In this document: positions 3,711-19,167 of the stretch, piece by piece | Layout: each line of letters opens with the position of its first letter | Numbering within the stretch: position 1 is the first letter of the stretch | IMG/VR virus record: IMGVR_UViG_3300025872_000209 | Span: 1-30,301 of that record | Length of the DNA: 30,301 nt | Source: a virus | Strand: one strand, 5' to 3' | Program-made: the position numbers and the translations under genes | The notes under the pieces: model-generated | The model's database searches: none | What the model was told of the DNA's origin: nothing | What the model saw: only the letters and a program-made list of their open reading frames with translations

Positions 3711-4031
3711 ATGGCTGAAAAAACCGTAAACTACACCGAGGAACAAACCCTTAAACTTGTAGCCGATTACAAGGCTGGCGTACAGGTTGAGGAAATTGCC
3801 AAGGCAATGGGTAAATCCGTTCGGTCGATTGTTGCAAAACTGTCCCGTGAGGGCGTATACCAGAAAAAGGAATACACGACCAAAACGGGTGAGGCTCCCG
3901 TCAAAAAGGATGAGCACGCCGATGCAATCGGCAAGGCCTTGAACCTTTCGGAAGGGGATACCGATTCGCTTGCCAAGGCAAACAAGCGTGCGCTTGCTGC
4001 GATTGCGGAGTTTATCCGCAGCAAGGCGTAG
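3711..4031 (+). CDS. HTH-like putative DNA-binding protein, paralogue 1 of 4
   Basis: 106 residues with AGGGG at the ribosome site. The N-terminal half (NYTEEQTLKLVADYKAGVQV, then EEIAKAMGKSVRSIVAKLSREGVYQKK) has the shape of a trihelical HTH domain whose last helix SVRSIVAKLSREGVY is nearly invariant in the copies at 7827, 8730 and 9677(-). The C-terminal half (ADAIGKALNLSEGDTDSLAKANKRALAAI) is a second helical unit, also conserved in all four. I know similar small proteins from large myophages but no assigned function. A regulator of the palindrome- and promoter-rich intergenic modules is a reasonable guess, not shown. Confidence 0.8.
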   Translation: MAEKTVNYTEEQTLKLVADYKAGVQVEEIAKAMGKSVRSIVAKLSREGVYQKKEYTTKTGEAPVKKDEHADAIGKALNLSEGDTDSLAKANKRALAAIAEFIRSKA

Positions 4032-7826: not shown

Positions 7827-8153
7827 ATGGCAGAAAAAGCCGTGAACTACACTCCCGAGCAAACCGCGAAGGTTGTCGCGGATTATCTCGCGGGTGTTAC
7901 CGTGGAAAGCATTGCCGAAAATCTCGGCAAATCGGTTCGCTCGATTGTGGCGAAATTGTCGCGTGAGGGTGTTTACCAGAAAAAGGTTTATACCACAAAA
8001 ACGGGTGAACCCGTTCAGAAAAAGGATATGACTGCGGATGCTATCGGTCGAATCCTGAACCTGAGCGAAGCCGATACCGACTCGCTCACCAAAGCGAACA
8101 AGCGCGCTTTGAAAGCGATTTTTGATGCGCTTGCCAATTCCAAGCCTATCTAA
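7827..8153 (+). CDS. HTH-like putative DNA-binding protein, paralogue 2 of 4
   Basis: 108 residues, AAAGGGT ribosome site. Very close to paralogue 1 throughout (shared GKSVRSIVAKLSREGVYQKK, YTTKTGE, SLTKANKRALKAI), including the Lys-rich linker and second helical unit, which suggests recent duplication together with its intergenic module. A weak TAGAAT at 7768-7773 may be the -10 of its promoter; I see no good -35. Confidence 0.8.
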   Translation: MAEKAVNYTPEQTAKVVADYLAGVTVESIAENLGKSVRSIVAKLSREGVYQKKVYTTKTGEPVQKKDMTADAIGRILNLSEADTDSLTKANKRALKAIFDALANSKPI

Positions 8154-8729: not shown

Positions 8730-9038
8730 ATGACTGACAAAGTAATGAACTATACCCCTGAACAAGTTCAGGAACTGGTCCAGAAGTATCAGCAAGGCGT
8801 CTCTGTGGAGCAACTGGCTGAAACTCTTGGTAAGAGTGTGCGTAGTGTGGTTGCTAAGCTGAGCCGCGAGGGTGTGTACGTAGCGAAGACCCGGACTACA
8901 CAGGCGGCCCGTGTTACCAAAGCTGAGCTGGTCGAGCGCATTGCTCGTGTGTGTGATCGGAATAGTGAACAGTTTGAATCGCTGGAAAAAGCAAATCAGG
9001 ATGTTTTGACCCGCCTGGTCGAAGTGCTCAAAGCCTGA
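8730..9038 (+). CDS. HTH-like putative DNA-binding protein, paralogue 3 of 4
   Basis: 102 residues. NYTPEQVQELVQKYQQGVSV, then EQLAETLGKSVRSVVAKLSREGVYVAK keeps the conserved recognition-helix block. The C-terminal unit (ELVERIARVCDRN...SLEKANQDVLTRLVEVL) is more diverged than in paralogues 1 and 2. It alone among the plus-strand copies has two tandem TATAATATT promoters and sits right after the iteron-like repeats, so it could be the autoregulated master copy (inference). Confidence 0.8.
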   Translation: MTDKVMNYTPEQVQELVQKYQQGVSVEQLAETLGKSVRSVVAKLSREGVYVAKTRTTQAARVTKAELVERIARVCDRNSEQFESLEKANQDVLTRLVEVLKA

Positions 9039-9064: not shown

Positions 9065-9093
9065 TTGCAGCCCCTACTCAAACAGTGTATAAT
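9065..9093 (+). promoter_or_regulatory. promoter of hammerhead RNA
   Basis: TTGCAG, 17-bp spacer, TATAATATTATTA. The expected start, about base 9100, is exactly where the 12-bp outer helix of the RNA begins. The -35 is also the right arm of a GGGGCTGCAA/TTGCAGCCCC hairpin (9046-9074) after the preceding gene. Confidence 0.8.
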
Positions 9094-9391
9094 ATTATTA
9101 TAGTTTGGGAAATGCGATAAAGCGCACAAACAGAGTCCACTTAGCCAACTACAAGTGTCGATAACCTAAGTACGAGACTCAAGTTTGATTCCCAAACTAT
9201 CACACTTCAGAAAGGCAGCAGTTAGTTACTGCTAGCAGACAGCACCTAGTGCATACAGTTTTACGTAGTCTGGCTCTGACGGGTCCCTAATGTCTCAGTA
9301 CCTAGAATCAGTAAATTCGGGGAACGCACTCACGGGAATCAACCAGACCCTAAACTGTAGCAAATGGTCCAGTCGTTGCTGCCCTTCCCCT

Positions 9392-9478
9392 ATTCCTCTG
9401 ATGAGCTCACCAAGAGCGAAACCCAAACCCGAAAACTGGTGCCCCATGCCCAGCAGACTACGGTTTAGGGTCAGGAAT
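9392..9478 (+). ncRNA. type I hammerhead ribozyme
   Basis: Stem I ATTCCT (9392-9397) with AGGAAT (9473-9478). Core CUGAUGA (9398-9404). Stem II GCTC/GAGC (9405-9408 with 9414-9417) around ACCAA. Core GAA (9418-9420). Stem III ACCC then AAACC (9421-9429) with GGTTT, bulged A, GGGT (9462-9471). Cleavage is expected after C9472 in GGGUC/A. Every invariant core base is present. The ends lie in stem I, hence type I. It sits 10 bases before the terminator stem, so cleavage would remove the terminator hairpin. Confidence 0.88.
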
Positions 9479-9482
9479 TTAG

Positions 9483-9511
9483 CCCGCCAGTGCAAGCTGG
9501 TGGGTTTTTTT
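9483..9511 (+). terminator. intrinsic terminator of hammerhead RNA
   Basis: CCCGCCAG TGCAAG CTGGTGGG followed by seven T. Confidence 0.92.
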
Positions 9512-9522
9512 ATTTGGGGTAG

Positions 9523-9561
9523 GGCGCCAATATTATACAGTGCTAAACCTTTATGTGTCAA
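9523..9561 (-). promoter_or_regulatory. antisense promoter cap F
   Basis: Minus strand TTGACA (9556-9561), 18-bp spacer, TATAAT (9532-9537), GGCGCC (9523-9528). It lacks the AT palindrome of caps A-E but keeps promoter spacing and GGCGCC, so the promoter rather than the palindrome is what is conserved. Faces the hammerhead RNA. Confidence 0.65.
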
Positions 9562-9676: not shown

Positions 9677-9988
9677 TTAGGGTCGGTTATTCTTAGATAA
9701 TTCCCGTTCTATGACCTCAAGTACACCTTTATTGACCTTTTCCAGACTTTCTAGGAGTTCAAGGTTCATATTCAGCAGTTTTGCGATCCGTTCTATGTAT
9801 TCTGACTTCTTAACCGGTACCTCACCGCGTTTGTTTAGGTACTGTTTTTTCTGGTACACCTCGAGCGAGCTGAGCTTGGCAATTATGCTCCTGGTTGGCA
9901 CTTGGAGCTCCTGAGCCAGCACGTCCACCGAAACACCTTCTCGGTACCTTTGCACTAGACGGTCAGTGATTTCTTTAGTATATTTCAT
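9677..9988 (-). CDS. HTH-like putative DNA-binding protein, paralogue 4 of 4
   Basis: 103 residues from the ATG at 9986-9988. The longer frame to 10051 would lie inside the upstream gene. YTKEITDRLVQRYREGVSV, then LAQELQVPTRSIIAKLSSLEVYQKKQY keeps the pattern of the other three copies, and GEVPVKKSEY...SLEKVNKGVLEVI matches their C-terminal unit. It is the only copy on the minus strand. No Shine-Dalgarno is visible; it starts 4 bases after the stop of the 9993 gene and is probably coupled to it. Confidence 0.75.
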   Translation of the reverse strand: MKYTKEITDRLVQRYREGVSVDVLAQELQVPTRSIIAKLSSLEVYQKKQYLNKRGEVPVKKSEYIERIAKLLNMNLELLESLEKVNKGVLEVIERELSKNNRP

Positions 9989-19138: not shown

Positions 19139-19167
19139 TTGACCCTAAATCTCAAAAATTATATAAT
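19139..19167 (+). promoter_or_regulatory. promoter for 19197-20423
   Basis: TTGACC, 17 bp, TATAATATTTATTC; begins with TTGACCCTAAATC as at 29112. Confidence 0.8.

Follow-up and report, generated by a model that had tools for sequence, protein, structure and literature searches.

The window, i.e. the whole stretch of DNA analysed here (30,301 nucleotides; IMG/VR record IMGVR_UViG_3300025872_000209, positions 1 to 30,301), comes from a phage that carries a tRNA island and whose terminase is nearest to those of T5-like phages (about 49% identity). The non-coding RNA (ncRNA) locus studied is composed of the following features:

8730–9038, + strand: gcrA1, gene of a GcrA-like protein of 102 aa (Pfam GcrA, E 2.1e-6), upstream of the ncRNA
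9065–9093, + strand: P1, promoter of the ncRNA as read from the sequence (TTGCAG, 17 nt, TATAAT, with TG before the latter)
9100–9201, + strand: domain A, closed by the 12-bp helix AUAGUUUGGGAA/UUCCCAAACUAU
9203–9386, + strand: domain C, with closing helix 9214–9220/9377–9383
9346–9360, + strand: GACCCTAAACTGTAG, complementary to the 3′ strand of the hammerhead (9458–9472); a possible alternative pairing, not favoured by energy
9392–9478, + strand: type I hammerhead ribozyme, predicted cut between C9472 and A9473
9481–9506, + strand: intrinsic terminator hairpin, then a T run
9532–9561, − strand: P3, a perfect sigma-70 promoter (TTGACA-18-TATAAT), convergent and directed into the ncRNA
9677–9988, − strand: gcrA2, convergent GcrA-like gene bounding the locus, a gcrA1 paralogue by shared motif

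The −10 region of P1 is conserved in the relatives, and each of the 18 loci checked has a P3-like promoter at the equivalent position. P3 lies beyond the terminator of the ncRNA and would yield an antisense RNA over terminator and hammerhead; in one relative (L010) another hairpin takes the place of the terminator hairpin. The alignment of domain A covers only six distinct sequences, and in the window's clade a hairpin of domain C (9302–9320) covaries and has an invariant CAGUAA loop. Four similar small GcrA-like proteins are encoded within about 6.3 kb (3711–4031, 7827–8153, 8730–9038 and 9677–9988), of which only one scored against Pfam GcrA; gcrA2 gave no Pfam match of its own. A coding role for the ncRNA was rejected: the window's open reading frames of 97 and 88 aa are not kept in the relatives, whose longest frames over the ncRNA differ in strand, frame and length, and 1-nt indels are present.

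The hammerhead is built of three helices placed round the core, with stems II and III closed by loops and stem I open. Stem I (AUUCCU/AGGAAU, 9392–9397/9473–9478) comprises 6 bp and is followed by the core strand CUGAUGA (9398–9404), by stem II with its loop (GCUC-ACCAA-GAGC, 9405–9417) and by the GAA (9418–9420). Stem III has two parts, ACCC/GGGU (9421–9424/9468–9471) and AAACC/GGUUU (9425–9429/9462–9466), with A9467 bulged, and the cleavage triplet GUC occupies positions 9470–9472. The order CUGANGA, GAA(A), NUH triplet is the one that a type I hammerhead requires. A preliminary description of this DNA had recognized the core bases, the three stems, the bulged A and the GUC triplet, all of which are present at these positions, and had placed the cut 10 nt before the terminator stem, in agreement with the GC core of that stem beginning at 9483 (9481–9506 by scan). 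The minimum free energy fold includes the hammerhead both in the local piece and in the whole transcript (9100–9512), which is unusually stable (z −4.4), and the hammerhead pairs have probabilities of 0.74–0.96 in the precursor.

Several lines of evidence set this element apart from chance. With a descriptor of the core and the three stems, the window gave a single site when both strands were scanned, and 150 dinucleotide shuffles gave none. The search with the Rfam hammerhead models that the preliminary description had proposed as a check did return HH9, at 21.3 bits (E 0.012) and thus under the curated gathering score of 52, so that routine annotation would miss the hammerhead of the window. 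A hold-out covariance model gave an independent test, since its 27 distant relatives contained no sequence of the window's clade; its single match on the window was the hammerhead (37.3 bits, E 9.4e-10). Among 35 aligned hammerheads, 89.8% of the cells are paired (81.2% in shuffles), 49 cells show changes on both sides (17 in shuffles) and the covariation score is 0.230 (0.108 in shuffles); sliding the partner strands destroyed the signal, with far lower scores. Across the 35 sequences the catalytic core (CUGANGA and GAAA) varies only at N7, where change is tolerated; H17 is an A in a single sequence, which still obeys the NUH rule, and a C in the other 34. Self-cleavage activity is likely, as judged from the sequence comparison, because the stems covary well beyond the controls and the catalytic core is invariant. 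The rate of cleavage could be low, given that stem I measures only 3–4 bp in most relatives and that no stem I partner was found with which loop II would make the tertiary contact of fast natural hammerheads. The conserved part of stem I is restricted to CCU/AGG, the other 3 bp of the window being local, and loop II is of either an ACCAA or a UGNAAKU type, each conserved in its own group.

The same module was found in eight IMG/VR contigs, beside unrelated hammerheads, with an exact pattern of core and stem II; a pattern with free stem II added L023, and the gcrA-like protein used as query led to 80 related loci. A hammerhead lies downstream of the gcrA-like gene in about half of these 80, very diverged ones included, and it keeps its position in the locus across over 50 contigs of uncultured phages, many of which have diverged strongly (the longest related contigs reach about 100 kb). 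From gcrA1 (+) the locus continues with one or two promoters, the ncRNA, the hammerhead and the terminator, and ends with gcrA2 (−), which is seen in most contigs that extend that far. Neither the large ncRNA (queries L045 and L054) nor the GcrA-like protein matched any named phage.

The domains of the RNA vary among these phages. Domain A is followed directly by C in the window's clade, which has no domain B, while L008 contains A, B and C. The domain B pattern GACAGCGG...CGUCUUAAUUGUGG...CCGAGCCACAGCCC, located upstream in most loci, has 55 matches in IMG/VR; neither this pattern nor that of the hammerhead matched among GTDB genomes. The hold-out covariance model placed a hammerhead in 49 of the 55 domain B stretches (46 at full length and 3 cut at the sequence end). 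The simple descriptor missed 18 of these loci, 12 of which were recovered by reading and the covariance model. In the remaining six (L138, L144, L162, L171, L177 and L179) no recognizable hammerhead was found, which indicates that it is dispensable in some lineages. Three contigs of about 98 kb, like the window, each gave a single hammerhead of this type with the covariance model. L153 and L169 turned out to be one 100-kb contig (IMGVR_UViG_3300043436_004120) with two copies of the domain B/hammerhead RNA, whose hammerheads differ. In many relatives the giant RNA includes a tRNA-Glu(UUC) upstream of the hammerhead, which it abuts directly in several; in L042 the tRNA spans 3734–3808 and the hammerhead starts at 3808, and the same tRNA occurs in L035, L043, L053, L131, L133, L134, L136, L143, L160, L169 and L178. 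ARAGORN also listed tmRNA genes, as starred entries, within the tRNA islands of L141 (7674–8028) and L161 (5526–5941).

The distance from the cut to the terminator is 10–11 nt in the window and seven close relatives (8 contigs), about 80 nt in L008 and L033, about 295 nt in L023 and L034, and about 270–690 nt elsewhere, where a terminator was found; for L126, L134 and L141 the script gave 738–816 nt, with cut position or terminator less certain. The stretch between cut and terminator, domain D, is ORF-poor and contains motifs common to several phages. When domain D was sought elsewhere in the genome, only matches of 13–17 nt were found, most of them the GACCCTAA motif. A loss of domain D in the window's clade is suggested, on comparative grounds, since L023 and L008 look like intermediate states.

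Because the hammerhead usually sits in the middle of the RNA and not at its end, it probably cuts the giant RNA into defined pieces. We regard it as the site at which a large structured phage RNA, not described before and located between convergent gcrA-like genes, probably cuts itself. In this scenario the giant RNA would start at a strong promoter and fold into domains A and C, to which domain B is added in some phages and an embedded tRNA-Glu in some; the hammerhead would form locally as transcription passes and then cut after GUC. The 5′ product in most relatives would consist of A/B/C plus the ribozyme, with a 2′,3′-cyclic phosphate end, and the 3′ product of domain D (about 270–690 nt), starting with 5′-OH-AGG; with a conserved stem I as short as CCU/AGG, the two products would be able to separate. 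In the window's clade, with domain D gone, the cut would remove the terminator hairpin and leave an RNA of about 373 nt (9100–9472) with a defined 3′ end. The sequences themselves show that the ribozyme is present, where it lies with respect to promoter and terminator, that its stems covary, that its core is conserved and that it is single-copy; transcription, cleavage, dissociation, the loss rather than gain of D, and any function of the products are inferred. Against such a role stand the HH9 score under the gathering cut-off, the short stem I of most relatives together with the six domain B loci that lack a hammerhead, and the fact that in the window's clade the cut would remove only the terminator tail, a step for which a 3′ exonuclease could also suffice.

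The preliminary description had seen in the hammerhead a device for trimming the 3′ end of a dedicated non-coding transcript. What is borne out is the type I hammerhead and its place in a dedicated transcript of non-coding phage RNA; trimming as its general role is not. That the ribozyme serves only to define the 3′ end of the ncRNA and free it of the terminator hairpin appears unlikely: the layout of the window's clade, with the terminator stem 10–11 nt past the cut in the window and its seven close relatives (10 nt in the window), agrees with this proposal, but in most relatives the cut is followed by 270–690 nt more of ORF-poor, motif-sharing RNA. As only the window's clade has its terminator so near, 3′ trimming looks like a reduced version of the division into pieces.

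A regulated cut, in which GACCCUAA segments (in domain C of the window, in domain D elsewhere) would compete for the 3′ strand of the hammerhead, UUAGGGUC, in the manner of a conformational switch, seems quite unlikely. The segment 9346–9360 can form 15 bp with 9458–9472, its complementarity is kept in the window's clade, and GACCCTAA and TTAGGGTC occur together in domain D of 27 of 33 loci. However, this pairing is 8 kcal/mol worse than the hammerhead in the precursor, for which it was rejected as the true fold, and its probability is near 0 both before and after the cut. Moreover, the octamer GACCCTAA, complement of the cleavage-site strand, is spread over the whole phage genome, with 10 copies in the window (at 1849, 3162, 9346, 9465, 9582, 9677, 10309, 10711, 19141 and 29114) where 0.8 are expected. 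Those at 19141 and 29114 form part of promoter −35 regions and the others lie within genes and the ncRNA. In the related contigs the octamer often occurs as GACCCTAAAYYGC, and GACCCTAAA has 12–15 copies per contig (1–3 for the reversed control). Owing to this spread it may be a DNA site, and it is possible either that it is bound by a regulator of the phage or that it is tied to the hammerhead strand. An apparent much longer stem II containing the GACCCTAA motif was seen in L146 (716–814), L158 (12588–12758) and L178 (8585–8675).

The short stem I of most relatives would also fit a structural relic, in which the fold is kept as an element of the RNA and cutting has been lost. We judge this very unlikely, since the catalytic core is fixed while the stems covary and N7 varies, and the lone H17 = A still leaves a cleavable NUH triplet. 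Circularization, by joining of the cyclic-phosphate and 5′-OH ends left by hammerhead cuts, is highly improbable because there is a single hammerhead of this type per genome and the window's clade has no second site past the cut, even though TTAGGGTC is often present more than once in domain D and has AGG after it in 15 of 33 loci, a possible second substrate for the same core. A two-hammerhead circular RNA of the viroid or retrozyme type was rejected for want of a flanking pair, as the window and each of the three 98-kb contigs had only one match.

Returning to the division of the RNA by its own hammerhead, a wider proposal is that these loci define a new class of giant phage RNA, of about 0.4–1.2 kb, which the hammerhead would cut into two structured RNAs acting separately or as a nicked complex, and that P3 could control the cut; belief and doubt are evenly balanced here. 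One ribozyme kept at one place in one RNA, with natural variants in which the downstream domain is retained, shortened or absent, or in which the ribozyme itself is missing, makes the role of hammerheads in phages directly testable.

Type I hammerheads are known in bacteria, prophages and phages, including phage intergenic regions, and several that flank prophage genes have been reported (Perreault et al. 2011, PMC3088659). The present one shares with them and with Rfam HH9 (RF02275) the core, the three helices, the open stem I, the NUH site and the phage location. It differs in occurring once per genome inside a conserved structured ncRNA, whereas theirs lie between protein genes, and in its conserved stem I of 3–4 bp and long structured loop III. 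Two to four hammerheads in the same orientation were also observed in gaps between small genes in L005 (6261–7742), L009, L011 (5815–6908), L014 (8212–9362), L019 and L020; the arrays of L005, L009, L011 and L014 resemble the prophage arrays of Perreault et al. 2011 (PMC3088659). The Pelagibacter phage HTVC168P (OR420735, 494–545; L022) contains, by the descriptor, a complete unannotated hammerhead between gp2 and gp3, with core and stem II nearly identical to those described here but with its site between small protein genes; being a cultured phage, HTVC168P offers a convenient experimental comparison.

Theta (HDV-like) ribozymes adjoin phage tRNAs and have been proposed to process ncRNA, cutting the 3′ trailer of the tRNA (PMC10879173). 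They are likewise phage ribozymes beside a tRNA, but of a different class, and here the cut falls about 100 nt past the tRNA in the relatives, while the ncRNA of the window has no tRNA. GOLLD and ROOL are large structured phage RNAs of unknown function, often near tRNA islands, and the GOLLD linker can hold tRNAs (PMC12286853); the terms "hammerhead" and "self-cleav" are absent from the text of that paper, and the open-access literature yielded no report of a hammerhead built into a GOLLD-like phage RNA. The GOLLD and ROOL models of Rfam matched neither the window nor 20 relatives at the gathering score, nor 8 relatives up to E 1, and no other Rfam family was found for the giant RNA beyond tRNA and the weak HH9 match. 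The RNA described here is likewise large, structured and phage-borne, and the phage of the window also has a tRNA island; unlike GOLLD and ROOL, it is flanked by gcrA-like genes and contains a ribozyme predicted to be self-cleaving. Two known kinds, the hammerhead and the GOLLD/ROOL-like phage RNA, are combined in a large RNA that is itself not in Rfam. This giant phage RNA, similar to GOLLD and ROOL in its size and setting but not described so far, would carry its own processing enzyme.
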